41,586 nt of DNA from an uncultured Prevotellaceae bacterium (lineage in GTDB: Bacteria; Bacteroidota; Bacteroidia; Bacteroidales; Bacteroidaceae): contig ONCZ01000068.1 in the NCBI GenBank assembly GCA_900316445.1, forward strand, positions 1 to 41,586. The letters are read 5' to 3'. Every line of letters starts with the position of its first letter. Position 1 is the first letter of the stretch. The position numbers and the translations under genes are program-made. Shown piece by piece: positions 6,478 through 41,405 of this stretch. The notes beneath the pieces were generated by a model. That model ran no database searches, had not been told where the DNA came from, and was given only the letters and a program-made list of their open reading frames with translations.

Positions 6478-8638
6478 TTGAATGTTGTTTAGTGGATAAA
6501 ATATTGTTTTTGACTTTCTTGCCATAGTTGAACTTGATGCCGAAGGTGCCATAGACCGTGGTTCCCGACGTGTTGTTGCCCAAATGATAGGGGCGCATGG
6601 TGCGGTCCACGTAATTGAAGATGTTATCCACACCGAATTCCAGCCGGTAAGTCAGCATCTTGCCAGACTTGCCCAGGTCGTGGGTGGTGTTGATGCGCCA
6701 GATCTGATAGGGCTCGCCGTTGCCGTTGTTCTGATAGTAACGGGTGCTGCTGCCACGGGTTGAAAGGCTGACTCCCAGTCGATAGACGGGGGAGAACGTG
6801 TGACTGTACATGGCCGAAGCACTCCATTTGTGATAGGCCGAACCGTCGATGACGACGGTGGTCATCCGGTCTTTATGCTCATCGTAGAGATGGGCTTTGG
6901 TGTCGAGGTAACTGTAGGCAGCGTTCAGGCTCAGGTCCTTCATCACCTTATAAGACAGCGTGACATCCAAGCCACAGGTCCGGGCATCGTCCATGTTCTT
7001 ATACATCCTGGCCTGCACCTTCATGCTGCCGTCACCCTGATAGGCGGTGGTGACACCAGCAGGGATCTCACCTTCGGACACATTGACCAGCGTAATCATG
7101 TTGTCGAGCTTGTTGATATAGCCCGTGACGGCCATCGAGAACCGACGGCCACGATACTCGGCGTTGGCGGAGTAGTAGTTGCTGGTCTGGGGATTGAGGT
7201 TAACGTTGCCGATGTTATAGAAGATGCTGCTGCCCATCATGTGGAGATAGCGGTAATGGAGCTCCTTGACGGTAGGCGTCTTGAAGCCCTGACTCCAACC
7301 CAGACGGAATCGGAAGTCACCGGCAGAGAACATCGTGCTGACCTTGGGCGTCAGACGGAAACCGAAGTTGCGGTTATCGACTAAGCGGAGACCGGCAGTC
7401 AGATTGAACCACTTCAGCAGGTCGAACTCATCCTGCACGTAGAGAGCGGAGGTCCAGTCGTCGGCGGTGCCCGTCTCTGTGCGGTCAGGGGCATTCAGAT
7501 AGTCGTAGCGGTATTCAAGGCCTGCGTTCAGCGTGTTCTCGTAAGGGAGATAGAAGATACCCTTGAGCAGACCCATCACCCGCTGCTGGTCACTCTGCAA
7601 CTTGCTCTGCCCTGGCATCATAGCCACAGAGAACCACTCGCCGTTCTGATCGCCGTATTCCTCGCCGATGAGCAGCACATAGTCGTAGTGCTTGGCGGTA
7701 TAGTCGTAGTAATAGGCGTGTTTGTTCCAATCGACATCCAGCGACAGGTAATTAGACTTTTCACTTTTCACTTCTCTCTTTTCACTCCCCAGATACCACT
7801 TGCCGCCGACAGAAGCCGAGGCATTGTTGTAACGCAGATCGTAGGTATAGACATCGCAGCTGGGGTGAGAGCCGTTGGTGGGGCGGAGGATGTTTTTCTT
7901 GTAGTAGGAACCTTCGGCATAGAGTTCCAGACCGTCAAAAGGCTGATAGGTCAGGCGTTCTGCCACCTGCCAGTTGCGGAACTTGTTCACCGTCTTGTTC
8001 TTGCTGTCTGTCAGCACCATTCCCTCGGCATATTCCTCAGGTGTGTTCTGCCAGCCGTCGTTTCGCTGCAGCTGGAAGTTGGTCTGACTGTTCACCTTGC
8101 CGATACGGAAAGCCAGCGTGTTGTGCTGGCGCAGGTCGTTGTGGGAGCCATAGCGGGTGACGTTGTCTGCATAAAGCCCCTTCTCGGTGTGCTTCTTGGT
8201 GATGATGTTGATGACGCCAGCCATCGCATCGCTGCCGTAGAGGGCACTCTGGGCGCCCTTCACGATCTCTATCTTTGCGATGTTGTGGGGGTCGATGAGC
8301 GAGAGGTCGTTCTCACCACCCACATCGCCATGAATGCGCTTGCCGTCGATGAGTATCAGGATATAGTTGTTGCCCAGACCGTTCAGCTGCATCTGGGAAC
8401 CCATATCGCCCTCGTTGAAGGCAAACGAGGCGGTCAGTCCGGCGAGGATATCCTCCAGGCTCTTACCGCCATACTGACTCAGCATCTTGCTGGTAATGAC
8501 CTCCGTCTGAACGGGCGCATCCTTCATCAGGTGACGGGTACCAGTTCCTGTCACCACCACCTCCTGCAGGCTGTCCGTACGCCAGACATCCGTCTGGGCA
8601 TAGGTGCCGACAGCCAACAACATCAGGCCAATAGCCAA
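6461..8638 (-). CDS. btuB: BtuB-like TonB-dependent corrinoid receptor
   Basis: This roughly 725-residue outer-membrane receptor has a short TonB-box-like stretch (DSLQEVVVTGTGT), a plug (about 30-150: MQLNGLGNNYILILIDGKRI, SALYGSDAMAGVINIITKK) and a barrel. It is the first gene after the cobalamin riboswitch, which supports a corrinoid as the ligand (strong inference). The start is odd: the only start-like codons are TTG at 8638 and ATG at 8623, and TAA lies three codons upstream, so the signal peptide (AIGLMLLAVGTYAQ) lacks its usual basic n-region. A heptanucleotide array lies at 7757-7784. The 3' end overlaps cbiK. Whether the TTG is used or the start has been damaged is unclear. Confidence 0.88.
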   Translation of the reverse strand: MAIGLMLLAVGTYAQTDVWRTDSLQEVVVTGTGTRHLMKDAPVQTEVITSKMLSQYGGKSLEDILAGLTASFAFNEGDMGSQMQLNGLGNNYILILIDGKRIHGDVGGENDLSLIDPHNIAKIEIVKGAQSALYGSDAMAGVINIITKKHTEKGLYADNVTRYGSHNDLRQHNTLAFRIGKVNSQTNFQLQRNDGWQNTPEEYAEGMVLTDSKNKTVNKFRNWQVAERLTYQPFDGLELYAEGSYYKKNILRPTNGSHPSCDVYTYDLRYNNASASVGGKWYLGSEKREVKSEKSNYLSLDVDWNKHAYYYDYTAKHYDYVLLIGEEYGDQNGEWFSVAMMPGQSKLQSDQQRVMGLLKGIFYLPYENTLNAGLEYRYDYLNAPDRTETGTADDWTSALYVQDEFDLLKWFNLTAGLRLVDNRNFGFRLTPKVSTMFSAGDFRFRLGWSQGFKTPTVKELHYRYLHMMGSSIFYNIGNVNLNPQTSNYYSANAEYRGRRFSMAVTGYINKLDNMITLVNVSEGEIPAGVTTAYQGDGSMKVQARMYKNMDDARTCGLDVTLSYKVMKDLSLNAAYSYLDTKAHLYDEHKDRMTTVVIDGSAYHKWSASAMYSHTFSPVYRLGVSLSTRGSSTRYYQNNGNGEPYQIWRINTTHDLGKSGKMLTYRLEFGVDNIFNYVDRTMRPYHLGNNTSGTTVYGTFGIKFNYGKKVKNNILSTKQHSNDEEN
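7757..7784. repeat. Heptanucleotide tandem array in btuB (CTTTTCA x4)
   Basis: Four 7-nt units: CTTTTCA, CTTTTCA, CTTCTCT, CTTTTCA. In the coding strand the unit is TGAAAAG; the diverged third unit (AGAGAAG) is the one whose phase would otherwise place TGA in frame. It encodes EKREVKSEKS in a barrel loop region. Confidence 0.85.
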
Positions 8639-8654
8639 TGTCTGTCTTTATTAA

Positions 8655-8826: not shown

Positions 8827-8829
8827 GTG

Positions 8830-8837: not shown

Positions 8838-8879
8838 CAACTTTTTCGGATAGATGATGCATAATTAACGGATTTTTTT

Positions 8880-8887: not shown

Positions 8888-8901
8888 CAGCAGAAATAGT
8901 G

Positions 8902-11283
8902 ATGATGACAGCAAGAAAGGCATTTCTTATAGCGGCTCCGACGAGCGGCTCTGGCAAGACAACCGTTGCCAGAGGACTGATGGCGTTGCTGAGCCAGAAG
9001 GGCTACAAGGTACAGCCCTTTAAGTGCGGCCCGGACTATATCGACACGAAGTTCCACGAGGCTGTCTGCGGACGTCCCAGCATCAATCTCGATACGTTTA
9101 TGGCAACCCCAGAGCACGTCCGCGAACTCTTCTGGCATTACGGCGCTGATGCCGATATTTGCATCGTGGAAGGGATGATGGGGCTCTTCGACGGCTATGA
9201 CCGCGAGAAAGGTTCTTCTTATGAGATAGCCCGAGTACTGGATATCCCAGTCGTGCTGGTGGTCGATGCGAAGAGTGCAGCGTATTCGATGGCAGCGCTG
9301 TTGTCTGGCTTCATCTATTTCAGAAAAGATATCCGCTTCGCGGGCGTTATATATAATAAGGTGGGATCGGAGAGGCATTTCCAGATGCTGCGGCAGGTGT
9401 GCGACGATTTGGATATTGCGTGCTTGGGTTATCTGCCGAAAGATGCTTCGCTGGAACAAGGTTCACGATATTTAGGCCTCGACTATTCAGAAATGCCGGA
9501 AACCAAGGAGCTGACAAGGCTCTTGGAGGAGCATATCAACCTCCAAGAACTGTTTAACAAGGTAATCGTTTCTCCCCCTGAGTCAGGGGGAGTCAGAGGG
9601 GGTCTGAACAAGCGCAGACATTCCCTTGTTCAGACCACCCCGCCTAAAGGCATCCCTCCTGACTCAGGAGGGGAAAAGGTTACACTCGTGGCGAAAAATG
9701 CCGAGAGTTTTTCGTTCCTTTATCAGGAGACTTTGGATCGTTTCCCCATAAAGAGGTTCTTCGATCCAGAGAAGGATGTGCCAGATCTTAGCAACATCGA
9801 CCTGCTCTATCTGCCCGGCGGCTATCCTGAGAAACATTTAGAGGCGCTGGTGCAGAACGAAGCCTGCCGCAAAGCCATTAAGGACTATGCCGAGCAAGGA
9901 GGCCGCATCATAGCCGAATGTGGTGGGATGATGTATCTCTGCGAGCGTATCGTCACAGATGATGGCGATTATCCGATGTGCGGTGTGCTGCCCTATTCCA
10001 TAACAGCCCGCAAAGCAGACCGTAAACTCTCGCTTGGCTATCGTCGCTTTGAGCTCGACGGCAAGGAGTATCGAGGACATGAGTTCCATTATACGCAGTT
10101 CTTTTCGAAGAAAAGCGGCAAAGCCGAGCGCTTAGGCAAGCCACAGTCTGCCACTCAGGTCTATAACGCTAAGGGCGGACCTGTCAGCACACCCGTCTTC
10201 AGATATAAGAACGTCTTGGCATCCTATACCCACTTAGCACCCACCCCCAACCCCTCCCTAAGGGAGGAGAGTTTGGATACACCTGCTACAGATACTACAC
10301 TTGAAGGTAATCAAGCCCCCCTCCCTTGGGGAGGGGTTGGGGGTGGGTTACATCCCATCATGTTCGCAGGAACGGGCAGCGATGTCGGCAAAAGCATCGT
10401 GGCTGCGGCCTTCTGTCGCATCTTCAAGCAAGACGGTTACCACCCTGCTCCCTTTAAGGCTCAGAACATGGCTCTCAATTCTTACGCCACACCTGATGGT
10501 TTGGAGATAGGTCGTGCCCAGGCTGTTCAAGCCGAAGCCGCAGGCATCCCCTGCCACACGGATATGAACCCCCTGCTGCTGAAACCCCAGAGCGACCATA
10601 CCTCACAAGTGATCCTTAACGGTCGCCCTCTCGGCAATAAGGATGCGTATGATTACTGGCGTAAGAAACCAGTTCTCCCCCTGAGTAGGGGGAGTCAGAG
10701 GGGGTCTGAGCAGGGGAATGTTGAGGCGGATCAGACCACCCCTCGCTCGGCTTTGCCGCTTTGCTCTGCAAAGAACCCCTCCTACTCAGGAGGGGAAAGA
10801 ATAGACTTCCGCTCCGAGGTCTGCTCCGCCTTCGACCGTCTCGCTGCTCGCTATAATCCCATCGTGATGGAGGGCGCCGGCAGCATCGCAGAGATCAATC
10901 TGAAAGACCGCGACTTGGTGAATATGTCGATGGCCCGTCATGCTAAGGCTGATGTCATCCTGGTGGGCGATATCGACAGAGGAGGCGTGTTTGCCTCCGT
11001 CTATGGCAGCATCGCCTTGCAATCGCCAGAAGACCGTAAGCTTATCAAGGGCATCATCATCAATAAGTTCCGTGGGGATATGCGTCTCTTTGAGGAGGGG
11101 CGCAAGATGCTAGAAGATCTCTGTGGCGTGCCTGTCCTGGGTGTCATACCTTATTATAAAGATATACATATCGAGGAAGAGGACTCTGTGGCGCTGGCTC
11201 AGAAGTCGTTCGAGATGCAGCAGGGCAAGGTGAATGTGGCTATACAAACAACGTGGACGATATCCACAAGGCGGACATCATAA
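8902..11283 (+). CDS. cbiA-cbiP: Fused cobyrinate a,c-diamide synthase / cobyric acid synthase (CbiA-CbiP), broken in CbiP
   Basis: The N-terminal half is CbiA/CobB: P-loop [10 protein letters not shown] (about 11-20), [19 protein letters not shown], then the glutaminase part with LPGGYPE and CGGMMYL carrying the nucleophile Cys. It amidates cobyrinate side chains a and c. The second half is CbiP/CobQ ([44 protein letters not shown]), which amidates b, d, e and g. The linker after ASYTHL is a palindromic repeat element; two further elements lie inside the domains. At about 11240 the frame jumps: VNVA should lead to about 25 conserved residues including an SNFTDF-type motif, but the DNA goes directly to (Y)[17 protein letters not shown] out of frame. 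The next frame carries the rest. CbiA should be functional; CbiP is not, if the sequence is correct. It is divergent from the riboswitch operon. Confidence 0.88.
9571..9676. repeat. In-frame palindromic element (family 1), copy in CbiA
   Basis: Imperfect inverted repeat of about 105 bp. The left part begins TCTCCCCCTGAGTCAGGGGG and ends GGTCTGAACAAG; the right part begins with its exact complement CTTGTTCAGACC and ends GACTCAGGAGGGG. It adds about 36 codons (starting [12 protein letters not shown], ending PPDSGGEK) between the two CbiA subdomains, without breaking the frame. Confidence 0.85.
10238..10350. repeat. In-frame palindromic element (family 2) forming the CbiA-CbiP linker
   Basis: The ends are inverted repeats of about 28 bp with one mismatch (left starts ACCCACCCCCAACCCCTCCC; the right end is the complement of nearly the same sequence). 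Between them is about 55 bp of non-repeat DNA. Read in frame it gives a linker beginning [11 protein letters not shown] and ending WGGVGGGLH exactly between the end of the CbiA glutaminase domain and the start of CbiP. Confidence 0.88.
10674..10798. repeat. In-frame palindromic element (family 1), copy in CbiP
   Basis: Left part TCTCCCCCTGAGTAGGGGGA then GTCAGAGGGGGTCTGA; right part TCAGACCACCCC to CTCAGGAGGGGAAA. It is the same family as the copy at 9571 but read in a different frame ([13 protein letters not shown] rather than [12 protein letters not shown]), so the element is open in at least two frames. The middle carries a smaller CTCGGCTTTGCCG-type piece. Confidence 0.85.
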
Positions 11284-13053: not shown

Positions 13054-14436
13054 ATGTTTAGAAGGTCATTATACATATTAATAGGTGTTCTGATGATTGC
13101 TTGCAGTCAGGAGTCAGAAGACAGGAGTCAGGAGACAGGAGTCAGAATTCTGGAGGAGGCAGAGGCTGCTTTGGCCAATGACAGCATCCGTCTGGGTGAG
13201 ACTCTGTTGCGAAAGACCATACAGTTGTCGGAAGCGTCCAAGGACTGGCACACCTATTATATCGCGCATCAGCGATTGGCGGAAGCATTGTCGCAGAGTA
13301 ATCCTGAGGAGGCCTTGCGACTGATGAAGAAAGCCCTGACTGTCTATGAGCAGCATCCTGACGATGAGCGAAATTACGTTATGTTGCTTGATTATGCAGG
13401 CACTTATGCCGCACAAGTGGCCTTCACCACAGAGGGTTCCTTCGACGAAGCACTCGATTACATCAACCGTGCTTACGGTATCGCTGAGAATAGCCAGATG
13501 ACTGACCTGATGTGTCAGACACTCACCAGTCTTGCCAACATCACCTGGGCCAAGGAAGACTATCGCCAGGCACTCGACTACGCCCATCAGGCAGAATCAA
13601 CAGCAACAACCGACCTGAGGTCTGCCACATTACAAGTGCTGGCTCGCAGTTACCTCAGCCTTAATATGCTCGATTCGGCAGAGACTATTTATCGGCAGAT
13701 TGATCCAGGCAACGATGTCCATCTGGGTTATATCGTACAGAGTAATCTCGCCAAGATAGCCTTGAGACGGATGGGTGCCACACAGGTGGAGGACAGCGTA
13801 GATGAAGCCTTTGACCAGATAGAGGATATCTATTACAAGGCGCTTGAACAGAAAGACCAGTACTATCAGGAGACGTTGCGCCAGGAAATGGAGAATCAGC
13901 AACTGGAATACCGCTCAAAGATGTATGGTCGGACACTCCTGATAGTCATCATTGCTGCGATGATCATCCTTATTGCAACAGTACTGGCACTTCGCTATCG
14001 TATCCGTTTGCAGGAACAGGAGAAACGTCGGCTTCAGGAGGAAACAGAGCATCAGAAGACCTTGCTGCACCAGGCCAATGAAGTGGTGGCATTCCTGCAA
14101 AACTTCATCCTCGAACGTACGGAAGTGCTGAAGAAACTCAACAAAGGCGGCGATTCGCTCATCTACCTCAGTCCGCACGAATGGAGCGAGATAGAACGGA
14201 CGCTTAACGCCATCGACAGTAACCGCTTTGCCAAGATACGTGAGCAATACCCCACGATGCAGGAAGACGACATTCACCTGTGTATCCTCACACGGCTCGG
14301 CCTCAGCAACCGCACCATTGGCAACATATATTGCATCACCGTCTCAGCCGTCCAGCATCGCAAGCTCAAACTAAAGAAGGACGTATTCGGAGAGACCAAT
14401 CCAGACATCACGTTGGAGCAGATACTGAAGAATTAA
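13054..14436 (+). CDS. Lipoprotein TPR sensor with transmembrane helix and LuxR-like HTH
   Basis: The 460-residue protein starts with a lipoprotein-like signal (LIGVLMIACS). Helical TPR-like repeats fill about 20-280 (for example HQRLAEALSQSNPEEALRLM). One membrane helix lies at about 292-312, then a coiled coil, and a cytoplasmic end with a helix-turn-helix (LSNRTIGNIYCITVSAVQHR). This is the one-piece membrane-regulator architecture common in Prevotella and Bacteroides: a periplasmic sensor joined to a DNA-binding domain. Its target is unknown; the next gene, a secreted protein 31 bp downstream, is a candidate partner. A heptanucleotide array follows the lipobox directly. Confidence 0.75.
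   Translation: MFRRSLYILIGVLMIACSQESEDRSQETGVRILEEAEAALANDSIRLGETLLRKTIQLSEASKDWHTYYIAHQRLAEALSQSNPEEALRLMKKALTVYEQHPDDERNYVMLLDYAGTYAAQVAFTTEGSFDEALDYINRAYGIAENSQMTDLMCQTLTSLANITWAKEDYRQALDYAHQAESTATTDLRSATLQVLARSYLSLNMLDSAETIYRQIDPGNDVHLGYIVQSNLAKIALRRMGATQVEDSVDEAFDQIEDIYYKALEQKDQYYQETLRQEMENQQLEYRSKMYGRTLLIVIIAAMIILIATVLALRYRIRLQEQEKRRLQEETEHQKTLLHQANEVVAFLQNFILERTEVLKKLNKGGDSLIYLSPHEWSEIERTLNAIDSNRFAKIREQYPTMQEDDIHLCILTRLGLSNRTIGNIYCITVSAVQHRKLKLKKDVFGETNPDITLEQILKN
13104..13145. repeat. Heptanucleotide tandem array in the TPR regulator (GAGTCAG x6)
   Basis: Six 7-nt units alternate near GAGTCAG and GAGACAG. They encode SQESEDRSQETGVR just after the lipidated Cys, so the array forms the tether between lipid and TPR domain. 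Confidence 0.88.
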
Positions 14437-16630: not shown

Positions 16631-16720
16631 TGTTCACAATGAGTCTGACACATTATGAGTATAGAAATCAAATTACTTTACACAATTTCACTACTTTCTT
16701 CTTTCTTAGAGAAACAAGGC

Positions 16721-16800
16721 ACTAAAGTGGGACTTTACAGGCACTAAACTCCGACTTTCCTTAGCCCAAACCTCCACTTTCCTTAGCCCAAAGTCAAGGC
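16721..16800. repeat. Intergenic tandem repeat with 22-nt period (about 3.5 units)
   Basis: Units begin ACTAAAGT, ACTAAACT, CCCAAACC and CCCAAAGT at 16721, 16743, 16765 and 16787, sharing ACTTTCCTTAG in the second half of units 2 and 3. The first unit holds the palindrome AAAGTGGGACTTT. The complement of the array at 22201-22288 has the same period and ACTAAAG...CAGGC pattern. The rest of the 500-bp gap (16609-16720, 16801-17002) shows no convincing gene. Confidence 0.75.
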
Positions 16801-19773: not shown

Positions 19774-20823
19774 TTAGAAGTATTTGGTGATCTGTGCCTT
19801 CTCGAAATTATTCATCTCGTTCATCATACGGACGGCTGAATCGACGAGGGGATAGGCGCAGAGGGCACCTGTCCCCTCGCCTAATCGCAGCCCAAAGTGT
19901 AAGAGGGGCTTGGCATCAACGATGTCGAGCATCATCTTGTGACCAGCCTCATCGCCACAATGGGTGAAGATCATATAGTCTTGCGAGGCAGGATAAAGCA
20001 AGATGGCTCCCAAAGCACAGGCAGTCATAATGAACCCGTCTATTAATATAATAAGGTGTAACTCAGCAGCCCGCAGCATCGCCCCAATGGCAGCGATCAT
20101 CTCAAAGCCACCGAAGATTCTTAGAGGTAAGAGGTGAGAGGTAAGAGGTGAGAGAGATGACTGGTGGCGAGCGAGAGCCTTTGACAGCACCTCGTACTTA
20201 TGACGAATGCCGTCATTATTAAGACCAGCCCCAGCGCCAATGCAATCCTTCAGGGGAATATCGCCAAAAAGACTCATCCAGATACTCGATGGCGAGGTGT
20301 TGCCAATGCCCATCTCTCCGATGCACAAAACGCGACAACCTTCTTTCACGCAATCATCCACGAGGTCGCTACCTATCTGTATGGCCCTGTCAAACTCCTC
20401 CTCACTCATCGCAGGCTCATAGAGGAAGTTCTTCGTGCCTCGGGCTATCTTGCGATCAATAATCCCAGGAACATCAGAGAAGTCATAATCCACGCCGACA
20501 TCAACAATCCGCAACTTAAAACCATGCTGGCGACAGAACATATTCACGCCTCCGCCACCACGAGTGAAGTTGATCATCTGCTGCCAAGTGACCTCTCGAG
20601 GACTGACACTCACGCCCTCACGCTCTATACCGTGATCGCCACCCAACAGCAAATGACAAGGATGGGCCAGCGATGGCTCTAACGTCTGCTGCACAAGACA
20701 CACCTGCATCGCCAATTCCTCCAAGCGTCCTAACGAGCCTTTGGGCTTATTCAGGTTGTCAATCTTCTCTTGTATCGCCCCCTGCAACGATCGATCCACT
20801 GGGGTTATATTGAATTCTTTCAT
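19774..20823 (-). CDS. cobT: Nicotinate-nucleotide--dimethylbenzimidazole phosphoribosyltransferase CobT
   Basis: CobT activates the lower-ligand base for nucleotide-loop assembly. The 349-residue protein has the family start (DNLNKPKGSLGRLEELA), LLGGDHGIEREGVS, CIGEMGIGNTSPSS and RLGEGTGALCAYPL with the catalytic Glu (316). It overlaps cobU by 4 bp (ATGA), so it is the last gene of cobS-cobU-cobT. A heptanucleotide array puts SSLSPLTSHLLPLR into a loop before the segment GGFEMIAAIGAM, where relatives have only a few residues. Confidence 0.95.
   Translation of the reverse strand: MKEFNITPVDRSLQGAIQEKIDNLNKPKGSLGRLEELAMQVCLVQQTLEPSLAHPCHLLLGGDHGIEREGVSVSPREVTWQQMINFTRGGGGVNMFCRQHGFKLRIVDVGVDYDFSDVPGIIDRKIARGTKNFLYEPAMSEEEFDRAIQIGSDLVDDCVKEGCRVLCIGEMGIGNTSPSSIWMSLFGDIPLKDCIGAGAGLNNDGIRHKYEVLSKALARHQSSLSPLTSHLLPLRIFGGFEMIAAIGAMLRAAELHLIILIDGFIMTACALGAILLYPASQDYMIFTHCGDEAGHKMMLDIVDAKPLLHFGLRLGEGTGALCAYPLVDSAVRMMNEMNNFEKAQITKYF
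20123..20157. repeat. Heptanucleotide tandem array in cobT (AGAGGTA/G x5)
   Basis: Five 7-nt units: AGAGGTA, AGAGGTG, AGAGGTA, AGAGGTG, AGAGAGA. The orientation is such that the coding strand has no stop in any frame, while the other strand would contain TAA and TGA. Confidence 0.88.
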
Positions 20824-22200: not shown

Positions 22201-22288
22201 GCCTGCGTGATATGACTTTAGTGCCTGCATGATAGGCTTTTTGTGCCTGCACGCTCTGTCTTTACTGCCTATTCTCTACGTCTTTACT
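22201..22288. repeat. Intergenic tandem repeat with 22-nt period (four units)
   Basis: Units start at 22201, 22223, 22245 and 22267, each beginning GCCT (GCCTGC in the first three) and ending in a CTTTA(C/G)T-like block (CTTTTTGT in unit 2). The reverse complement gives ACTAAAG...CAGGC, the pattern also seen at 16721. Confidence 0.8.
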
Positions 22289-22294
22289 CCCTTC

Positions 22295-22396
22295 AAACTA
22301 TAAGGTTGACTATTGTCGATCACTTGGATGACATAAGTCAACCACTTGAATGACTACAGTCGTCCATGTGACTGACATAAGTCAACCATATAGTTT
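22295..22396. repeat. 102-bp near-palindrome made of four 22-nt units (TGAC-N4-GTC)
   Basis: Units start at 22307, 22329, 22351 and 22373; each begins TGAC, four bases, GTC. Two contain the perfect half-palindrome TGACATAAGTCA. The outer ends are AAACTATAAGGTTGAC and its complement with one mismatch (GTCAACCATATAGTTT). The whole block can pair with itself along most of its length. With the array at 22201 it fills most of the 470-bp gap between cobS and the kinase-like gene; the remaining 22397-22544 shows nothing obvious. Confidence 0.85.
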
Positions 22397-25456: not shown

Positions 25457-25462
25457 AAACGA

Positions 25463-25532
25463 CCACGAATTACACGAATTTAACTAATTATTCTCAGGCG
25501 CAGCAAATTAGTGTAATTCGTGAAATTCGTGG
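25463..25532. repeat. Intergenic inverted repeat (CACGAATT family) between btuF and btuC
   Basis: The left arm starts CCACGAATTACACGAATTT and the right arm ends GTGAAATTCGTGG; the arms pair over about 27 bp with four mismatches. It resembles the CACGGATTACACGGATT element at 31612 inside cbiET. It fills the 89-bp gap and could form an mRNA hairpin between the two genes. Confidence 0.8.
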
Positions 25533-25545
25533 TTGAATAAAGAAT

Positions 25546-27339: not shown

Positions 27340-29187
27340 TCAGTTAGGATAGATATTCCCGTTGTCGTCAATAAGTAGAATAGTGAGGGAACCGTCAGGG
27401 AGGAGAGGATTGCAATAGTCCGCACAATGGCGGATGACGGTATGGGCGAAGTCATCAAGCTGGGTTGAAGGAATACGTTCCCATAGTTCTCGTGCCAAAG
27501 TGATGTTGCTGATGTCGATGGATACTCCTGATTCTTGAAGCATCTGCTTAATGAAGTCGAGGTCCATCGTAGTCTTGCGGCTGTGGGTGTCGAGATGACC
27601 TGCTGCCAGTTTGACGGCTTTGCCCAGCATCACGCCAAGGGTAACATTCTTAAAATGGAGTTCGTGGGCGATCTTTAACGTCTCACCGATATAGTTGCCG
27701 TATTCCACGAATGCCTGACGAGGCAGATCTGGATAGAGAGCCTTCACAAAGCGCTCGCTTTTACCACCACTATTGATCACCACACGGTCTGTACCGCTGG
27801 CCTGGGCTATCATCATACATTTGCGGATGGAGTCGATAAAGGCTTCCTCTGAGAAAGGCTTCACGATGCCAGAGACACCTATAATCGAGATGCCACCCTC
27901 GATGCCCAGACGGGGATTAAAGGTCTTCTTGGCGATTTCTGCTCCGTTGGGGACGGAGATAGTGACGGAAATGTTTTTTAAACACAGAGACACAGAGGTA
28001 CAGAGTTTTTCCAGATTTTGACGGATCATCTCGCGAGGGGCTTTGTTGATGGCTAGAGAACCTGGGGGATAGTCAAAGCCAGGCAGGGTAATGGTTCCTA
28101 CACCCTCACCACCATATATAGCTATAGCGGGGGTGCGGAGGCACGGGGGTACGGGGGCGCGAGATTTGTCTGAGGCTGGAGTATTCTCGTACCCCCGCGC
28201 CCCCGTACCCTCGTACCTCCGAGATTCGATTACCTTTGCCCTCACCTCTATGCCGTTGGTGATGTCTGGATCGTCACCAGCCTCCTTAAAACAAGAGGCA
28301 TAATCATCGCCATAGGTCACCGGCACTTGGATCGTCTCACCATTGGGGAGGATAACAGGCACCTCTTTGGGAGTCTCGCCTTTCGCCAGTCGTATGGTCG
28401 CTGCAACTGCAGCTGCTGTGGCACAGGTTCCCGTCGTCAGTCCACTATGCAAGGGATAAAACTCCGGCAACAGATGCTCCACAGCCCTCCGCAGGCCATA
28501 AGGCCCATTAACAATGGAAAATGGATAATGGATAATGGATAATGGAGGACGCTTGAGAGCGATGATACGCATACCCTTGGCACGGGCGGCTGTCACCTTC
28601 TCGCTAAAGCCTCCCGTCTCACCACTCTCTTTGAGCAGGATGGCCTCTGCATCGATATCTATCACACTGCTGTCCTCATAATAGCATAGTTGTTCAGGTG
28701 TTGCCCCTTGTTCTTTCGCCAAAGCCAAAGATGACTCACGAGGCAATATGCGATAATACACTCGAACGCCTCTAGCTTCCAGATACTTAAGGCGACTGAT
28801 GCTCTGGACGCCAGTAGTGGCCAAGAGTGAGTGGATGTCATCAGGGATTAGCGAGTAGTCGTCAATCCACGTGATATCCGGGTCACGAGGCGGATAGATC
28901 CGTTCGTATCGGATGAAAGGAATCTGACAATCTTCGGAAACGGCAGCAATCGTCTGATGGAGCGTTGAGGCAAACGGATGGGCTGCATCCACGATGAGTC
29001 GGATGTCGTGCTCCCTGATGAAGGTCTTCATCGCCTCCGCATCCATCGCTCCGTCGATACGGATGCCATGCTGCAGCGTCAAGTCTTGTTCACCTGTCTT
29101 CGTACTATAGAAGAAAGGTGAGCCTGCCTCCTCCAATACCTCCACAGCCTTGCGGCCCTCTGTCGTTCCTCCGAATACGAGTATCAT
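27340..29187 (-). CDS. cbiJ-cbiD: Fused precorrin-6A reductase / cobalt-precorrin-5B methyltransferase (CbiJ-CbiD)
   Basis: The N-terminal 240 residues are CbiJ/CobK: ILVFGGTTEGRKAVEVL, VDAAHPFA, FIRYERIYPP and the YYRILPRESSLALA region; it reduces the macrocycle. The C-terminal part is CbiD: LHSGLTTGTCATAAAVAAT, GEGVGTITLPGF, INKAPREMI, FNPRLGIEGGISIIGVSGIV, LGKAVKLAAGHLDTHS; it methylates C-1 in the early-cobalt pathway. Three repeats are inserted: a heptamer array near the domain boundary, a GC-rich palindrome and an 8-nt array within CbiD, all in frame. It overlaps cbiG-cbiF by 4 bp and is the last gene of the corrin-ring operon. Confidence 0.93.
   Translation of the reverse strand: MILVFGGTTEGRKAVEVLEEAGSPFFYSTKTGEQDLTLQHGIRIDGAMDAEAMKTFIREHDIRLIVDAAHPFASTLHQTIAAVSEDCQIPFIRYERIYPPRDPDITWIDDYSLIPDDIHSLLATTGVQSISRLKYLEARGVRVYYRILPRESSLALAKEQGATPEQLCYYEDSSVIDIDAEAILLKESGETGGFSEKVTAARAKGMRIIALKRPPLSIIHYPFSIVNGPYGLRRAVEHLLPEFYPLHSGLTTGTCATAAAVAATIRLAKGETPKEVPVILPNGETIQVPVTYGDDYASCFKEAGDDPDITNGIEVRAKVIESRRYEGTGARGYENTPASDKSRAPVPPCLRTPAIAIYGGEGVGTITLPGFDYPPGSLAINKAPREMIRQNLEKLCTSVSLCLKNISVTISVPNGAEIAKKTFNPRLGIEGGISIIGVSGIVKPFSEEAFIDSIRKCMMIAQASGTDRVVINSGGKSERFVKALYPDLPRQAFVEYGNYIGETLKIAHELHFKNVTLGVMLGKAVKLAAGHLDTHSRKTTMDLDFIKQMLQESGVSIDISNITLARELWERIPSTQLDDFAHTVIRHCADYCNPLLPDGSLTILLIDDNGNIYPN
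27983..28006. repeat. 8-nt tandem repeat in the CbiD domain (CACAGAGA type, x3)
   Basis: Units CACAGAGA, CACAGAGG, TACAGAGT follow an A-rich start. They encode LCTSVSLCL within CbiD, next to the FNPRLGIEGG segment. Confidence 0.75.
28128..28222. repeat. In-frame GC-rich palindromic element in the CbiD domain
   Basis: Arms of about 37-40 bp (left contains GCACGGGGGTACGGGGGCGC, right contains ACCCCCGCGCCCCCGTACCC) surround about 20 bp. It adds about 32 codons (RRYEGTGARGYENT...RAPVPPCLRTPA) immediately before the conserved YGGEGVGTITLPG segment. Confidence 0.85.
28514..28548. repeat. Heptanucleotide tandem array in the CbiJ domain (ATGGATA x5)
   Basis: ATGGAAA, ATGGATA, ATGGATA, ATGGATA, ATGGAGG. 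The coding strand reads PPLSIIHYPFSIVNG and has no stop, whereas the opposite strand contains TAA. It lies at the C-terminal end of CbiJ. Confidence 0.88.
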
Positions 29188-31058: not shown

Positions 31059-32353
31059 TTCAATATAGTTATTGGATGATTATCGTTGAGTTGTATTCTT
31101 GTTGGCGGATCTTGTTGTAGTCCCAATTCTGCACATGCATCATCCCATAGCTGACGGCTGTCTATGGTGACCTTTGGCGCAACCACACTATTGAAGACGA
31201 TGATGCCATCAGGGGCAAGGATAGAGAGGACTTTCGACATAATGTCTTTCAGGCGGCCACCGTGACCTCCGATGAAGACAGCATCTGGGCGAGGGAGGGC
31301 AGAGATGTCTGTTTCAAGGAAATCGCCGATATGGATGTCGATGCCTGGGGCTCCAAAGCGACGGGCATTCTCTTGGATGATGGCCTCGCACTCAGGACGG
31401 ATCTCGAAGGCACAGACCGTGAGATGAGGGAACTGCAGGCGGGCCTCGATGGATACGCTGCCTGTGCAGAAGCCGATGTCCCAAAAGACATGTCTCATGG
31501 GCAATTCGAGGGCTTGGAGCGTCAACAGACGGATGGGCATCTTGGTGATCATTTTCTCACGACCATCGAGCAACACGAAGGCGGAGTCGGGAATGCCGAA
31601 TTTTTTTCTTAGGCACGGATTACACGGATTTACACTGCTTTTATTATCTGTCTTTGAATTTAAATCCGTGTTAATCCGTGTAATCCGTGCCAAAATGATA
31701 CAGTTGGGATGGTCAAAGTCACACCGTGCCGCTTCCTCGAGGGTGAGAGTACTGACCTTTTCGAGCGACGGATTTCCAAGATGCTCTCCAACAGACATAT
31801 TATAATCGGTGTAGCCATAGTCGAGCATCCGTTGGGCGATGGCTGAAGGGGTATGTTCACGGTCTGTCAGCACACCGATCTTTTCTGCCCTTTCGATGAG
31901 GGCTTTGTCAAACTCATGCCAAGGACGGCCTGTCAGCGAGACGATACGCATATCGTGATAGGGCATCACCAGCCGATGGGCCAGCATCTGAAGGGCGTTG
32001 AACGTGGGAAAGACCACCATCTCCGCCTCAGGCATCTTCCGCCTGATGGTATTGGCAAAGCCGAAGAACAGCGGATCGCCACTGGCGAAGATGATGATTG
32101 TCGAGGAGTGAGGAGTGAGGAGTGAGGAGTGAGAAATGTGGAGTGAGGAGTGAGATTTGTACTGTTCGAAGACGGCATCGAGGGGAACGGTGATGTCAAT
32201 CCATTGGGCATCAACAGGCAACAGCGGCGCAACGATCTCATGATGCCGCCTGCCACCAGAGAACACCTTCCCGTTCCTGATGATCTCCTGCACATCAGGT
32301 GGAAACCAGGGCTGTGGATTGTCTGTGATACCAATGACAATGAATCTAATCAT
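31046..32353 (-). CDS. cbiE-cbiT: Fused precorrin-6Y methyltransferase / decarboxylase (CbiE-CbiT)
   Basis: The 435-residue N-terminal half is CbiE (IRFIVIGITDNPQPWFPPDV, FSGGRRHHE, ASGDPLFFG, SLTGRPWHEFD), methylating C-5/C-15. The C-terminal half is CbiT, a Rossmann methyltransferase and C-12 acetate decarboxylase (KMPIRLLTLQALELP, FWDIGFCTGSVSIEA, FIGGHGGRL). ATG 32353 is chosen over 32383 because MIRFIVIG is the family start. A palindromic element forms the interdomain linker and a long heptamer array sits in CbiE after the early VFEQYK region, where relatives have only a short loop. It overlaps cbiG-cbiF by 13 bp. Confidence 0.93.
   Translation of the reverse strand: MIRFIVIGITDNPQPWFPPDVQEIIRNGKVFSGGRRHHEIVAPLLPVDAQWIDITVPLDAVFEQYKSHSSLHISHSSLLTPHSSTIIIFASGDPLFFGFANTIRRKMPEAEMVVFPTFNALQMLAHRLVMPYHDMRIVSLTGRPWHEFDKALIERAEKIGVLTDREHTPSAIAQRMLDYGYTDYNMSVGEHLGNPSLEKVSTLTLEEAARCDFDHPNCIILARITRINTDLNSKTDNKSSVNPCNPCLRKKFGIPDSAFVLLDGREKMITKMPIRLLTLQALELPMRHVFWDIGFCTGSVSIEARLQFPHLTVCAFEIRPECEAIIQENARRFGAPGIDIHIGDFLETDISALPRPDAVFIGGHGGRLKDIMSKVLSILAPDGIIVFNSVVAPKVTIDSRQLWDDACAELGLQQDPPTRIQLNDNHPITILKCRR
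31612..31691. repeat. In-frame palindromic element forming the CbiE-CbiT linker
   Basis: The left arm GGCACGGATTACACGGATTT continues to 31635; the right arm (31668-31691) is its complement with one mismatch in 24. It encodes ITRINTDLNSKTDNKSSVNP and a few more residues between the CbiE core and CbiT. It is related in pattern to the intergenic element at 25463. Confidence 0.9.
32103..32158. repeat. Heptanucleotide tandem array in the CbiE domain (GAGGAGT x8)
   Basis: Eight 7-nt units, six close to GAGGAGT and two diverged. The coding strand reads SHSSLHISHSSLLTPHSS with no stop; the opposite strand contains TGA. It is the longest heptamer array in the window. Confidence 0.9.
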
Positions 32354-32373
32354 AACCCTTATAATTCCAATTT

Positions 32374-32408
32374 CAAACCTCAAACCTCAAACCTCAAATC
32401 TCAAAACG
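32374..32408. repeat. Intergenic heptanucleotide array between cbiHC and cbiET (CAAACCT x5)
   Basis: CAAACCT three times, then CAAATCT and a degenerate CAAAACG. It occupies most of the 55-bp gap between the two operon genes and is the only heptamer array outside a reading frame. Confidence 0.88.
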
Positions 32409-33868: not shown

Positions 33869-36049
33869 TTAGTTGATACTTATCACAACCTTAAACGTGA
33901 TGTTGCGCCCCATGTTGTAGACACCACGACGGCCAGTGACGACGTTCACATCGGCATACTTCAGTCGGCTCAGGTGGTTCTGGTAGGCCTTGTCCAGCAG
34001 GTTGTCAGCGGTGATGTGGAATTCTGCGACCTTCTTGCCACGCCACTGGATATCTGTTCCTGCCGAGAGTGAGAGCAGGGCATAGCCGGGCGTCTCGGTC
34101 TCTGTGTCGTCGGCACGGTAGATGTGTGTCTGCCTCAGATAGCAGTCAAGCCCGACGGCGACGTAGAGATTGTTGAAGGGTGAGCGGTGGGTGGCATCCG
34201 TGGTATGATGATGATTGACGGTGGTATGCGAATGGTGGAAGAGTTCCCATTTCAGTTCCGATGACCATTTTGGGGCAGGCGTGAAGGGGAGGTACTTGTC
34301 TTGAGAGGTGAGAGGTGAGAGGTAAGAGGTGAGTTGGGCATCGACATACGAGAACGCGTTGGAGAAATGCACAGAATGCACGGGGTGGAAGTCCACGCCA
34401 GCCTCGAAGCCCAGCAGACGGGCATCGCCCTGCGTATAGACATAGACCGGATAGTCCATTCTCTCACCTCTCACCTCTTGCCCCTCACCTCTAATAAATA
34501 TGTAGTTGTCGATGCGGTTGGCAAAGAGCGCCAGCTGTGCAGAGACGTAGCGCGAGGTGAAGTCGAGTCCGAGGTCGGCCTGCAGACTGTATTCGGCCTT
34601 CAGCTGCCGGTTGCCCAACTCATAGCGAAGCGAGCCCTCATGAACGCCGTTCGATGCCAATTCGCTCATGTTGGGTGTCCGGAAGCCACGGGCAAGGTTC
34701 AGGCGCAGATTGAAGTGGTCGCTGATGTTGCAGACGGCACCGATGCTGCCCGTCACGCCATTGAAGTGACGCGTGAAATCCTCAAAGCGCATCTCACCAT
34801 CCTCCATCAACTCATATCCGTGCAGCCGCCGGTGGTCATAGCGCAGCCCTCCGCTGAGTGTCCAGCGGTCGCCAAAGGCTTTTGTGGCTGTGGCATAGAG
34901 ACCGAAGTCAAAGAGCCGGTAGTCGGGAATCAAGTATTCCTCGCCCTCGTTGCCCGATTTCTGATACATACCGCCGATGCCCGTTGAGAGTTTCCATCCG
35001 TTCCACTCGTTGGTGATGTAGCGCAGGTCGTAGGTCAGCGTGTGCAGTTTGAAATACAGTTCGTAGTCATCCTCACTCTCCTCGAACTCCTGGCGGCGGT
35101 TCTGCTGATAGCCGATGATGGCTTTCAGACAGCCCGACGAGAGATTCAGCGCGTTATCCCACACGGCCTTGTAGTGCTTCACCTGCTGGAAGGGCAGCGA
35201 CTTGCCGTACTGGTGTCCCGTCCAGCCCTCTTCACGCTCCAGTTCTCCCGTCTCCGTGTCACGCTCACCCTCCACGATACTCGGCGTCAGGTGATAGGCA
35301 GTCCACGTGAGCCGAGAGTGTCCCCACACCTTATTAATACCCAGCATCAGGCGGCCTGCACGCTCGCTGAACTGCGAGCCCGGCACATAGTCATCATACT
35401 TATTCTGATAGGCATGCGCCATCTTGTCGCTGTAGCGGGCGTCCCACACGAAGCCCTTTTGGTTGCCCGCCATCTGCAGCGAGTAATGAAAGAGGCCGTT
35501 GTTGGTCTGATACTCCGTGCTGATATTGCCTTTCAGCTCTCCCTCAGCCAGCGTAGGCTGTGCGTGCAGGATCACCACGCCCGCCATCGCATCCGATCCG
35601 TACATCAGCGAGGCGGGACCCTTCAGGATTTCTACCGAGCCGACGCTGCTGCCATCGACCTCCACGCCGTGTTCATCGCCCCACTGCTGTCCTTCCTGCC
35701 TCACACCTTCGCTCATCACCACCACGCGGTTGTAGCCCAGCCCGCGGATGATGGGTTTCGAGATGCTGCCGCCCGTGGTCAGCTGGCTGACACCCGGCTG
35801 GTGGGCGATGGCATCGATGATGTTTGTCGAGGCTGTGGCCCGCAGCGTCTGGGGCGAGATGATTGATACGGGTGCCGTAGCGTGCTTCAGTTTTGTATCG
35901 CCCGTCACGCCCGTCACCGTCAGTTCGTTCAGTTGCAGATGGCGGAAAAACACATCCGTCGAGTCCTCCGCATGATGATGTCTTAAACTATCTTGGGCTG
36001 CCGCTGCCGTGCATATACACAGCAACAGCAGAATGCATTTTGTCTTCAT
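33869..36049 (-). CDS. TonB-dependent receptor with His-rich segments (metal receptor candidate)
   Basis: The 726-residue receptor starts MKTKCILLLLCICTAAAAQ (signal peptide); an upstream ATG at 36100 is possible. Just after it is HHHAEDSTDVFF; the plug has LNELTVTG, KPIIRGLGYNRVVVMSEGVR, WGDEHGVE and GPASLMYGSDAMAGV. The barrel has another His-rich loop (HHSHTTVNHHHTTDATH). IRGLG and WGDEHG-type plugs with His-rich loops occur in ZnuD-like zinc receptors and similar metal receptors, so zinc or cobalt is a reasonable guess; the neighbouring cobalt-dependent pathway fits cobalt, but this is inference. Two heptamer arrays are in frame. Confidence 0.85.
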   Translation of the reverse strand: MKTKCILLLLCICTAAAAQDSLRHHHAEDSTDVFFRHLQLNELTVTGVTGDTKLKHATAPVSIISPQTLRATASTNIIDAIAHQPGVSQLTTGGSISKPIIRGLGYNRVVVMSEGVRQEGQQWGDEHGVEVDGSSVGSVEILKGPASLMYGSDAMAGVVILHAQPTLAEGELKGNISTEYQTNNGLFHYSLQMAGNQKGFVWDARYSDKMAHAYQNKYDDYVPGSQFSERAGRLMLGINKVWGHSRLTWTAYHLTPSIVEGERDTETGELEREEGWTGHQYGKSLPFQQVKHYKAVWDNALNLSSGCLKAIIGYQQNRRQEFEESEDDYELYFKLHTLTYDLRYITNEWNGWKLSTGIGGMYQKSGNEGEEYLIPDYRLFDFGLYATATKAFGDRWTLSGGLRYDHRRLHGYELMEDGEMRFEDFTRHFNGVTGSIGAVCNISDHFNLRLNLARGFRTPNMSELASNGVHEGSLRYELGNRQLKAEYSLQADLGLDFTSRYVSAQLALFANRIDNYIFIRGEGQEVRGERMDYPVYVYTQGDARLLGFEAGVDFHPVHSVHFSNAFSYVDAQLTSYLSPLTSQDKYLPFTPAPKWSSELKWELFHHSHTTVNHHHTTDATHRSPFNNLYVAVGLDCYLRQTHIYRADDTETETPGYALLSLSAGTDIQWRGKKVAEFHITADNLLDKAYQNHLSRLKYADVNVVTGRRGVYNMGRNITFKVVISIN
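34304..34331. repeat. Heptanucleotide array in the TonB receptor (AGAGGTG x4)
   Basis: AGAGGTG, AGAGGTG, AGAGGTA, AGAGGTG; same unit and same coding orientation as the array in cobT. Encodes LTSYLSPLTSQ. Confidence 0.88.
34461..34495. repeat. Heptanucleotide array in the TonB receptor, opposite orientation (CTCTCAC x4-5)
   Basis: CTCTCAC, CTCTCAC, CTCTTGC, CCCTCAC, CTCTAAT: the same unit family as at 34304 but inverted. In this orientation intact units would give TGA in one phase; the units in that phase are the changed ones (GGGCAA and AGAATG instead of AGGTGA). Encodes RGEGQEVRGERM. Confidence 0.85.
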
Positions 36050-36105
36050 TAATACTGCCAACAAAACGCATGCAGATAGTTGTCTCCGAATTGCTTTCAC
36101 GGCCG

Positions 36106-39117: not shown

Positions 39118-39181
39118 TGTTGTGTTGTTTTAATGTTAATAAATAATATACTTATACTCCCTTAGATGATAATATTCTGAC

Positions 39182-39573: not shown

Positions 39574-39596
39574 CGGAAACGGGACTCTAAAGCAAA

Positions 39597-41405
39597 TTAA
39601 GACATTTTTTCTCGTTGCTTTTGGTATTCTGCAGGTGTCATACCATATTGGCGCTTGAACTTCTCTCGCAGATTGGCGGGAGTGAACCCCACGGCAGCAG
39701 CAATGGCGGCGAGGGTCATCTCGGGATGGTCTCGCAACAGGATGACAGCCTCCTCCATACGCAGAGAATTGATATATTGTGGGAAGGACAGCCCTTTGGC
39801 GTAGGTCGAGAGCAGATTGTTGAGTGTATGGCGACGGATGCCGAAGCGGTCGCAGATATCCTGACGCTGCAGGGTGACGTTGGAGTAGAGGCGCTCGGAA
39901 CGGATGGTGGCGTCGATGGTGGAGAAGATGTCGGCATCAGCGTTGTCGTCTGTGGCAGAATCTTCGACGGCCTCGTCGGCATTTTGAACTTCACGGCTCT
40001 CTTCGACGGTTTCCGCCTCGTCGTCGGGTTCGGGAGGCATACCGCTGATCATACGCACCAATGCACGGTTCTTTTCGCTGACAATCCTTTTCTGGCGGAA
40101 GAAATAGAGGGCGAAGGCCACAGCCAATAAGGCCACGACGGCAATGGCGAGACTGACGATGTGGGAGCGTTCGGCCTCAGCCTGCTTCTCCTGGATCTGC
40201 AACTGTTGTTCCTGGGCACGGTAACGGGCTGCGTAGTCGTGGGCCTCGCTTTTATGCAGGCTGTCGCTGACAGCCTTCGAAAGGGCTGCGTAGCGCGCCT
40301 GATAGTCGTAGGCCTCAGCCAGCCTGCCCTTGGCCTTGGCGGCGATGGCGCGGGAGCGTAGGATGACAGCATAATCCTCATTGAGCGTGTCGGCAGCCAT
40401 GCGGCGCTCTATCTCCGTGTAGGTTGTCAGAGCCTCGTCGTACATACCAAGGGCCACCTGTGCGGGAGCAATCATGCGGCGGGCACCGAATGTATGACCA
40501 TAGCCGCTCTGGTTGAAAAGCGCGAGATACTCTTTTGCTTTTTGTGCAGCAGCAGATTTTTCACTATTCGCTTTTCCCTTTTCACTCAAACAGGCATGCG
40601 CCATCGCCATGAATCCCCATGCCTGCGCACGGCTGAAGTCCAGATAGCGGTCACGGTCGTTGGGATGGTCGCTCCATGAGAGGCGATAACTGTCCTCGGC
40701 GTAGTCCTTGGTGTGTTGTTCGTAGTGGTCCAGCCGGTCGAGAATCCGCTGGGCCAAAGGAATCACCTCGGCATAGCGCCCCAAGTCGTTGAGCGCGTTG
40801 ATCTTGCGCTTCACGGCGATGATAAAGGCATCCATGCGGTCGATGCTGCCAGGGCTGTCGAGATGGTCGATGGCCTCGTCGAGTTTCCTGAGTCCCTCGT
40901 CCACCTGTCTCAGGTGCGTCATCACCAGTCCGATGTCGGCCTCGGTGCGCCAGCGTTCGGTCTCCTCGCCCTGCTGCTGACAGAGTTCGGCTTTCTGCAT
41001 AGCCCAATGCAGGTACTGCTCGTAGTCGGGCTTGGCACGACTGATGGCGATGAGCATGTCGAGGATGTTCATCTGCTCTGTAGGCTCGTTTCTCACGGAG
41101 TCGTGGTTGAGCAAGGCTTTGCAGATGAGGATGGCAGAGTCCTGGTGCTGCTCCACAAGCGACTTGCTGTAGACCTTGGCGCGAATGAACTGGGCGCGAT
41201 AGTCGCTGACGTTGCCTAAGAGCAATGCCGAGTCGAGCATCGTGAGTGCCCGCTTCGGATCCGTAGCGTAGGCCACTAATATGGAATCCTGTTGGTAGGG
41301 TGTGTCTCCCAAGTGAGGCAGATGCCTTACGGAACTACCATCCCCACATCGCACAAAAGCCAGCACGATCATACTATAAATAATAAGGTGTACTGTCTGT
41401 TTCAT
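39597..41405 (-). CDS. TPR sensor-AraC hybrid membrane regulator
   Basis: The 602-residue protein has an N-terminal signal-like segment (IIYSMIVLAFVRC), helical TPR-like repeats over about 30-400, one membrane helix at about 415-435 (VSLAIAVVALLAVAFALYFF), an acidic linker, and a C-terminal AraC-type HTH (DRFGIRRHTLNNLLSTYAKG, AAIAAAVGFTPANLREKFKR). It would sense an envelope signal and act on DNA directly. The HTH is duplicated in the next gene. A heptamer array sits in the TPR region. Candidate targets are the neighbouring envelope genes; this is unproven. Confidence 0.8.
   Translation of the reverse strand: MKQTVHLIIYSMIVLAFVRCGDGSSVRHLPHLGDTPYQQDSILVAYATDPKRALTMLDSALLLGNVSDYRAQFIRAKVYSKSLVEQHQDSAILICKALLNHDSVRNEPTEQMNILDMLIAISRAKPDYEQYLHWAMQKAELCQQQGEETERWRTEADIGLVMTHLRQVDEGLRKLDEAIDHLDSPGSIDRMDAFIIAVKRKINALNDLGRYAEVIPLAQRILDRLDHYEQHTKDYAEDSYRLSWSDHPNDRDRYLDFSRAQAWGFMAMAHACLSEKGKANSEKSAAAQKAKEYLALFNQSGYGHTFGARRMIAPAQVALGMYDEALTTYTEIERRMAADTLNEDYAVILRSRAIAAKAKGRLAEAYDYQARYAALSKAVSDSLHKSEAHDYAARYRAQEQQLQIQEKQAEAERSHIVSLAIAVVALLAVAFALYFFRQKRIVSEKNRALVRMISGMPPEPDDEAETVEESREVQNADEAVEDSATDDNADADIFSTIDATIRSERLYSNVTLQRQDICDRFGIRRHTLNNLLSTYAKGLSFPQYINSLRMEEAVILLRDHPEMTLAAIAAAVGFTPANLREKFKRQYGMTPAEYQKQREKMS
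40557..40584. repeat. Heptanucleotide array in the TPR-AraC regulator (CTTTTCA x4)
   Basis: TTTTTCA, CTATTCG, CTTTTCC, CTTTTCA; same unit as in btuB. In the coding strand the unit is TGAAAAG, and the unit whose phase would give a stop is GGAAAAG instead. Confidence 0.82.

Follow-up and report, generated by a model that had tools for sequence, protein, structure and literature searches.

The stretch of DNA analyzed here, contig ONCZ01000068.1 of an uncultured Prevotellaceae bacterium (assembly GCA_900316445.1; 41,586 nt, hereafter the window), carries nine tandem arrays of 7-nt units. We interpret these and the many similar arrays in the same genome as solo or paired arms of short, non-autonomous, dispersed palindromic elements that have been filtered for reading frame and against stop codons, and place the probability of this interpretation at about 0.65. 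The arrays displayed a common period, a peaked length, a phase that in several families was fixed at one end or both, a shared inner adaptor and inverted pairing. One arm peptide and one core recurred in unrelated genes, and at orthologous sites the arrays were absent or replaced. A preliminary description, made from the window's sequence alone, had proposed a process that spreads 7-nt arrays combined with selection that keeps the frame; 7-periodic arrays of about 31 nt were indeed present genome-wide, with the frame kept and stops removed, and what that description did not cover was the inverted pairing of a minority of arrays and the other palindromes inside genes. All nine arrays that it listed were recovered by Tandem Repeats Finder, with starts no more than 1-2 nt from the earlier positions and 4.1 to 7.4 units each, and a stricter period scan kept seven of the nine, missing those at 34461 and 40558.

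Period, length and pairing of the arrays

The window is contig C111 of a genome (G000) of 4.04 Mb in 137 contigs that is 93% complete; below, G numbers denote genomes (congeners unless stated) and L numbers denote sequence stretches or loci of this genome or of its relatives. At a fixed score, 36 stretches of the genome (597 kb) contained 65 arrays of period 7, 26 of period 8, 10 of period 9 and 19 of period 22, with one altogether for periods 2-6, and an order-2 Markov control of the same sample gave no period-7 arrays at that score. Because this sample was partly chosen via matches (10 of the 12 contigs in one subset, L154 and L155 were already known to contain them), the density was repeated on 21 stretches (296 kb) chosen blind to repeats, where 31 arrays had period 7, 14 had period 8 and five had period 9, with no array of any period from 2 to 6. 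The peak at period 7 on which the preliminary description depended was present in the genome sample, and extrapolation of the 31 arrays in 296 kb gives about 420 in the whole genome. Four stretches centered on GAGGAGT matches were excluded from the 597-kb density figure and were kept in the analyses of pairing, partners, placement in open reading frames (ORFs), stops, end phase and adaptor.

Array lengths were concentrated at 31-33 nt (37 arrays) compared to 11 arrays at 22-24 nt and 11 at 25-27 nt, with no arrays of 31-33 nt in an order-3 Markov control. This was also the commonest class in the loci of relatives (59 arrays) and in samples of the congeners G037 (12 of 31), G055 (6 of 18) and G059 (4 of 10). 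The relatives' loci were the best 80 of 287 related to the CobI-CbiC protein of the window; these 80 came mainly from metagenome-assembled genomes of Prevotella, Prevotellaceae and Bacteroidales, many of them from ruminants, with a few isolates (Prevotella sp. tf2-5, khp7 and ne3005, and P. ruminicola KHT3). The host of the window is probably a rumen Prevotella.

The ends of the arrays were placed with respect to the unit. Unit phase was alike at the start in 21 of 26 arrays of the GAGGA family and alike at the end in 18 of 26, and inner ends fell in one phase in 12 of 13 arrays of the GTTTAYA family and 8 of 9 of the TCAAAGT family. Different heptamers had the inner flank AT(G)ATTACY (ATGATTACY) in common, in up to a third of arrays; ATTAC occurred in 33 of 210 outward flanks (105 arrays) compared to 0 of 210 flanks taken 60 nt further out and 1 of 210 for the reversed word. 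TTC often preceded the outer end of an arm in this genome. Within the window, GGTAATTAG precedes the array at 7756..7786 on the + strand and resembles the inner flank of other arrays.

Of 22 cases in which two arrays lay less than 250 bp apart, 13 had the same unit in inverted orientation, with 7.1% expected from random pairing. The same held for 8 of 15 cases in the relatives' loci (4.4% expected) and for 7 of 12 close pairs in samples from G059, G018, G037 and G055, and beyond 250 bp the frequency was near background. In the paired arms inspected, length and register were similar within a pair and the heptamer varied between elements, and in several pairs a sequence resembling, by eye, a repetitive extragenic palindrome (REP) lay between the arms. 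Palindromes with arms of 8-nt or 9-nt arrays were also frequent in this genome, and the genes of the window likewise contained 8-nt-armed, 9-nt-armed and REP-type palindromes besides the 7-nt arrays.

The genus was surveyed in 60 genomes (G000 and 59 congeners, one genome per species) with the pattern TCAN4TCAN4TCAN4TCA, i.e., TCA at every seventh position, which was present in 54 of them, with 0 to 424 matches per genome over all 60; it was also present in 120 of 148 genomes sampled across the phylum. ACT is itself frequent in the arrays, so the backward-read control of this pattern is not clean and the counts are comparative only. Two of three single-contig congeners contained no period-7 arrays (in 200 and 100 kb) and the third contained two in 100 kb. 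As arrays were present in an isolate (L104, at CbiE) and in a single-contig genome (G045), assembly error is unlikely to be their source.

Reading frame, shared peptides and orthologous sites

Inside ORFs of at least 150 aa lay 93 of 119 arrays, with 13 crossing an ORF edge and 13 outside; the same kind of ORF calling assigned 88.5% of the sequence as coding, so the arrays are only mildly depleted from genes. A third of the intragenic arrays (31 of 93) were located in the first or last tenth of the ORF. Array units were enriched in TCA/TGA (47 of 72 compared to 18.3 expected, and 63 of 101 compared to 30.2 expected), and in most heptamers of this genome and its relatives one strand reads TCA and the opposite strand TGA, so that three units in one orientation are enough to close every frame. 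For 98 coding arrays, taken at a lower score, the stop was found only on the other strand in 71, only on the coding strand in 10, on neither in 14 and on both in three, and stop positions were altered in 13 of 13 cases where they fell in frame compared to 4 of 35 out of frame. The ORFs were required to be open, and the altered in-frame stops therefore show survivorship, not directed change. In the window, the five correctly oriented coding arrays had no stop trinucleotide on the coding strand, as had been claimed, and in the three oriented the wrong way (7757, 34461 and 40557) the in-frame TGA was changed in 3 of 3 (AGA, CAA and GGA), compared to 1 of 9 out of frame.

Seven paired elements in six ORFs shared one reading frame. 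Their hosts were an M16 peptidase, LptD, a polysaccharide flippase, a P-type ATPase (two copies), TamB and an ABC-F-like ATPase. In the seven elements the left arm encoded an SRxEEGGxRxEN-like peptide, and right arms resembled NLLPPSSFLLPR or SHSTLHTP. The elements of M16, LptD and the flippase, together with the second copy in the P-type ATPase, shared the core DQTTP...YSGGENTLQG (YSGGENTLQGN) or a close variant, and the remaining three had other sequence between the arms. Further paired arrays were located in a MetH activation domain and an ABC transporter. The peptide of the LptD element had 20 matches genome-wide, of which seven were full-length in open frames, 12 were partial and one was the antisense of a counted copy; stops were present in three of the 20. 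The peptide of a palindrome in a CobQ/CbiA-type ORF of the window (10673..10797) also resembles the core of the heptamer-armed elements. Palindromic elements thus lay in frame in unrelated genes with a conserved peptide in one frame, as is the case for the Rickettsia palindromic elements (RPEs) considered below.

Orthologous sites, for which each count includes the window's own sequence, were variable. Of 71 orthologous CbiE loops, all taken from open ORFs, 18 were 7-periodic (0.05 expected by shuffling) and between them had 15 different canonical units, and loops of other CbiE orthologues carried palindromes (e.g., L064 and L069). The CbiE array of the window has its ends in common with those of L061, L063, L072 and L128 with a different unit and a segment 21 nt (three units) longer, and the segment of L070 is 21 nt shorter than those four; across the six orthologues with shared array ends, segments measured 57, 78 and 99 nt, i.e., steps of three units. 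At CbiE a site can thus outlast a change of its unit, with lengths changing in steps that keep the frame. The CobT loop was 7-periodic in 4 of 23 orthologues examined (30 loci, less seven without the anchor motif), and relatives had other heptamers at this position (L030, L032 and L037), a palindrome (L039) or an ordinary loop; in the solved homologue 1wx1 the position is a shorter segment, located before a conserved GG-E motif. In L039, the cobT locus of G050, the place of the heptamer array is taken by an inverted repeat of some 40 bp that looks, by eye, nearly perfect. The CbiJ-CbiD linker was 7-periodic in 6 of 53 orthologues and ATPase site 2 in 4 of 30, and at ATPase site 1 a single loop length was found in 22 of 30 sequences, with eight longer and the reference longest of all.

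An AlphaFold2 model of CbiE/T built with 28 sequences (mean predicted local distance difference test, pLDDT, 80.7; predicted template modeling score, pTM, 0.50) contained three runs of at least three residues with pLDDT <50, namely 75-81 (within the array), 227-251 (mostly the 9-nt palindrome) and 264-266. With 15 heptamers in 18 of 71 orthologues of one CbiE loop, it becomes testable how conserved enzymes acquired their loop insertions.

Proposed elements, known systems and competing explanations

An arm would comprise about 31 nt, made of four heptamers and a few bases, often with TTC at the outer end and with the adaptor at the inner end in up to a third, and a paired element would consist of arm, core and inverted arm over about 96-160 nt, single arrays being solo arms. 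The elements would spread as DNA copies that insert elsewhere, and slippage, combined with pairing or conversion between the arms, may renew the heptamer in both arms together. In genes, an element would persist only where the frame is kept, no in-frame stop results and the site is a surface loop, linker or gene end; intragenic arrays would then be tolerated loops, not switches, and between genes the elements probably act only as hairpins. A bolder proposal, which we regard as doubtful, is that these are an undescribed class of element in which the inner adaptor is kept and the arm is rebuilt as a ~31-nt array of a new heptamer, alike in both inverted arms. If true, a dedicated copying activity (template-driven or fold-back) would operate in many Bacteroidota, where housekeeping proteins would have their surface loops continually rewritten.

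As the enzyme that mobilizes the elements, the first candidate is a Y1 transposase of the REP-associated kind. Y1_Tnp (PF01797) was detected in 34 of 59 congeners, with a median of 115.5 matches to the TCA pattern compared to 32 in the others (P = 0.0056, kinship and the number of genes tried not being allowed for). Ten of the 59 congeners had a REP-associated tyrosine transposase (RAYT) of the G000 type, and each of the ten had at least 30 pattern matches (P = 0.015, with the same two caveats); a second type (from G007) was present in only 5 of 60 genomes. The genome of the window has a single PF01797 match, a RAYT-like frame of 270 aa at L213 3178-3987 (contig C78). Array-rich congeners without a detected Y1 gene exist, so Y1 is associated with array number and not necessary for it. 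As drivers, SbcD (7 of 59 congeners) and RVT_1 (20 of 59) were rejected, neither being associated with pattern counts. Counting that of the window, only 8 of the 60 Prevotella genomes gave an SbcD match at E 1e-10 or better; absence of SbcD might help palindromes persist, although it does not track array number.

The short tandemly repeated repetitive (STRR) sequences of cyanobacteria are heptameric repeats, and the preliminary description, which mentioned them, knew of no named equivalent in this DNA. That statement was partly wrong, as heptamer over-representation in bacteria is in print, and two reports in PubMed Central (PMC) credit both the excess and the idea that 7 nt suits polymerase slippage to a 2007 study by Mrazek (PMC4692102, PMC4679880). 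Heptamer repeats GGGAATC of Xanthomonas, where most arrays have four units, and GGGGA(C/T)T of Nostoc (PMC4692102), and the TAACTGA arrays of Beggiatoaceae, which are also found in five Bacteroidetes and whose coding orientation is limited by stop codons (PMC4679880), share with the present arrays the period of 7 and the dispersal. These simple sequence repeats are, however, described as having one motif and being mostly intergenic, whereas here many motifs fall in one length class, share an adaptor and pair in inverted orientation, and ORFs hold 93 of 119 arrays. RPEs, and with them other in-frame miniature inverted-repeat transposable elements (MITEs), are elements of about 150 bp that lie in frame in unrelated genes and encode a conserved peptide (PMC10969869). 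Compared by description, the present elements appear similar in their in-frame insertion in unrelated genes and conserved peptide, and differ in having arms made of tandem 7-nt units (8-nt and 9-nt units also occur) whose sequence changes, in being mostly single and in their Bacteroidota host. REPs and REP doublets forming hairpins (REPINs) resemble them as short palindromes that occur solo and as inverted doublets, and REP-like sequence was seen by eye between some arms; REP insertions inside the transposase genes themselves are described for TnpAREP subclass 2.4, which is abundant in Cyanobacteria and Bacteroidetes (PMC6006769). Unlike REPs, the arms here are tandem arrays, and Y1 genes are associated with their number and not necessary. 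Same-unit inverted arms, as in 13 of the 22 close pairs, would suit classical MITEs, but such a partner is missing from 118 of the 138 arrays. In searches of the open-licence PMC literature we found no description of heptamer-armed in-frame elements in Prevotella or Bacteroidetes, or of fixed-length heptamer arms sharing an adaptor. The arrays link the unexplained heptamer excess of bacteria with in-frame palindromic elements of the Rickettsia type, and this lineage is suited to studying both.

Several observations weigh against reading the arrays as arms of dispersed elements. Most arrays are single (118 of 138), a strict rule giving an inverted partner to only 20 of 138, and in two inverted pairs or more the sequence between the arms is host-like (L022 10049-10157 and window 34302-34492). 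The closest congener sampled (G018) had 12 arrays without a peak at 31-33 nt. Outer ends were looser than inner ends, with 8 of 13 in one phase for GTTTAYA and at most 3 of 9 for TCAAAGT, and in the AGGAGWC family only 13 of 21 and 9 of 21 ends were in one phase. The adaptor was not found in the 80 loci of relatives (6 of 242 flanks compared to 2 of 242) and did not figure among the leading flank words in four congeners either. At orthologous sites the loops, which are diverged and differ by both replacement and insertion, allowed neither a target-site duplication nor a clean empty site to be read. Finally, the arrays do not require the enzyme, since 18 of the 49 congeners without a RAYT of the G000 type have 100 or more pattern matches.

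Replication slippage in place, by which any tolerant loop or spacer would acquire period-7 microsatellites de novo, 7 nt being a length that suits polymerase slippage, accounts for part of these observations. It agrees with the period-7 excess described in many bacteria (PMC4692102, PMC4679880), with units that differ between species at one site and same-site segments that differ by whole units, and with the unfixed outer ends of several families. On its own it predicts neither a peaked, non-decaying length distribution, fixed inner ends and an adaptor, nor the inverted pairing of like units and the arm peptide and core shared by unrelated genes. The length peak, inner ends, adaptor and pairing led us to reject slippage alone, and as the full explanation we consider it improbable, if the most serious competitor; after insertion of an element, slippage may well shape the turnover of its units.

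The preliminary description had also suggested that cobT, CbiE, CbiJ and the receptors could be phase-variable contingency loci, switched on and off by gain or loss of units. Seven is not a multiple of three, so that one unit shifts the frame, and CobQ-like sequences of four relatives have stops at or beside repeat sites (residue 457 in L292, 450 in L294, 450-455 in L313 and 227 in L300). The stops at 450-457 fall between domains that are separate in some relatives (the two CobQ-like domains lie on opposite strands in G015, G020 and G022 and are thus separate genes there) and may be ordinary gene ends. The suggestion was not supported at CbiE, where the group of segments of 57, 78 and 99 nt changes by 21 nt and keeps the frame. 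CobT was open through the loop in all 31 genomes with a match (of 60), which, with the array in only 4 of 23 cobT examined, is weak evidence against switching. Units are also few and imperfect, and hosts include LptD, TamB, a MetH activation domain and an ABC ATPase. Given the frame-keeping steps at CbiE and the open cobT, phase variation was rejected as the principal explanation and is very improbable. Several arrays translate to loops rich in Ser, Thr, Leu and Pro, as might ordinary conserved or low-complexity protein that is 7-periodic in its DNA by chance. That explanation, named as a possible refutation in the preliminary description, is hardly credible, as orthologues are without arrays or carry other units, and shuffling of the CbiE loops predicts 0.05 periodic loops in 71.

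Features of the window

The nine 7-nt arrays and the palindromes of the window are listed in Table 1.

Table 1. Tandem arrays and palindromes of the window.
Feature	Position	Strand	Location and remarks
7-nt array, coding strand AGTGAAA, wrong-way orientation	7756..7786	-	TonB receptor 6461-8638 (earlier called btuB)
In-frame palindrome 1, REP-like	9562..9683	+	CobQ/CbiA-type ORF 8899-11283
In-frame palindrome 2	10239..10348	+	ORF 8899-11283, between GATase_3 and CbiA domains
In-frame palindrome 3	10673..10797	+	ORF 8899-11283; peptide EADQTTP...NPSYSGGE
7-nt array, AGGAGTC family	13105..13147	+	TPR protein 13054-14436, directly after lipobox-like LMIAC
7-nt array, CTCTTACC/CTCTCACC	20123..20154	-	Length-variable CobT loop, aa 224-233; CobT 19774-20823
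9-nt-armed palindrome, CACGAATTA type	25462..25533	.	Between two ORFs
8-nt-armed palindrome	28128..28221	-	Within CbiD domain; read RRYEGTGARGYENTPASDKSRAPVPPCLRTPA
7-nt array, CCATTAT	28513..28546	-	Linker between CbiJ and CbiD domains of fusion 27340-29187
9-nt-armed palindrome	31609..31694	-	CbiE-CbiT junction; overlaps longest low-confidence stretch of model
7-nt array, CACTCCT	32103..32154	-	CbiE loop before FASGDPLF; CbiE/T 31046-32383
7-nt array, TCAAACC	32373..32405	.	Upstream of CbiE/T, between CbiE/T and CobI-CbiC genes
7-nt array, TCACCTC family, arm of inverted pair	34302..34333	-	TonB receptor 33869-36100 (two arrays)
7-nt array, inverted partner of 34302-34333, ~129 nt away	34461..34492	-	In-frame TGA unit altered; barrel-like sequence between
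7-nt array, degenerate AGTGAAA	40558..40586	-	AraC-type regulator 39597-41405; in-frame TGA unit altered

For the array at 13105, Tandem Repeats Finder set the end at 13145. The array at 32373..32405 is intergenic only if CbiE/T starts near 32353, as the longest ORF start (32383) overlaps it. The LMIAC motif before the array at 13105, which resembles a lipoprotein lipobox, suggests that the tetratricopeptide repeat (TPR) protein 13054-14436 may be a lipoprotein rather than a regulator.

When the CobQ/CbiA-type ORF 8899-11283 was compared with relatives by tblastn, the aligned pieces broke near the palindrome edges, at 219-220/261-262 in G035 and G009 and at 446-447/483-484 and 589-591/631-635 in many relatives; G040, however, aligned nearly full length across the first two palindrome sites. 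Repeat elements are also located at the CbiJ-CbiD and CbiE-CbiT junctions, like the palindrome between the CobQ-like domains. Gene models of rumen Prevotella carry repeat-derived segments, some of them between fused domains.

An inverted-repeat scan found 84 repeats, one of which was a run of N. Two additional 8-nt arrays, absent from the earlier list, lie at 171-203 and 27982-28005 (AACCTTAC and ACACAGAG). Arrays with a period of 22 nt, about two helical turns, are located at 16717-16792 and 22201-22396, mostly between ORFs.

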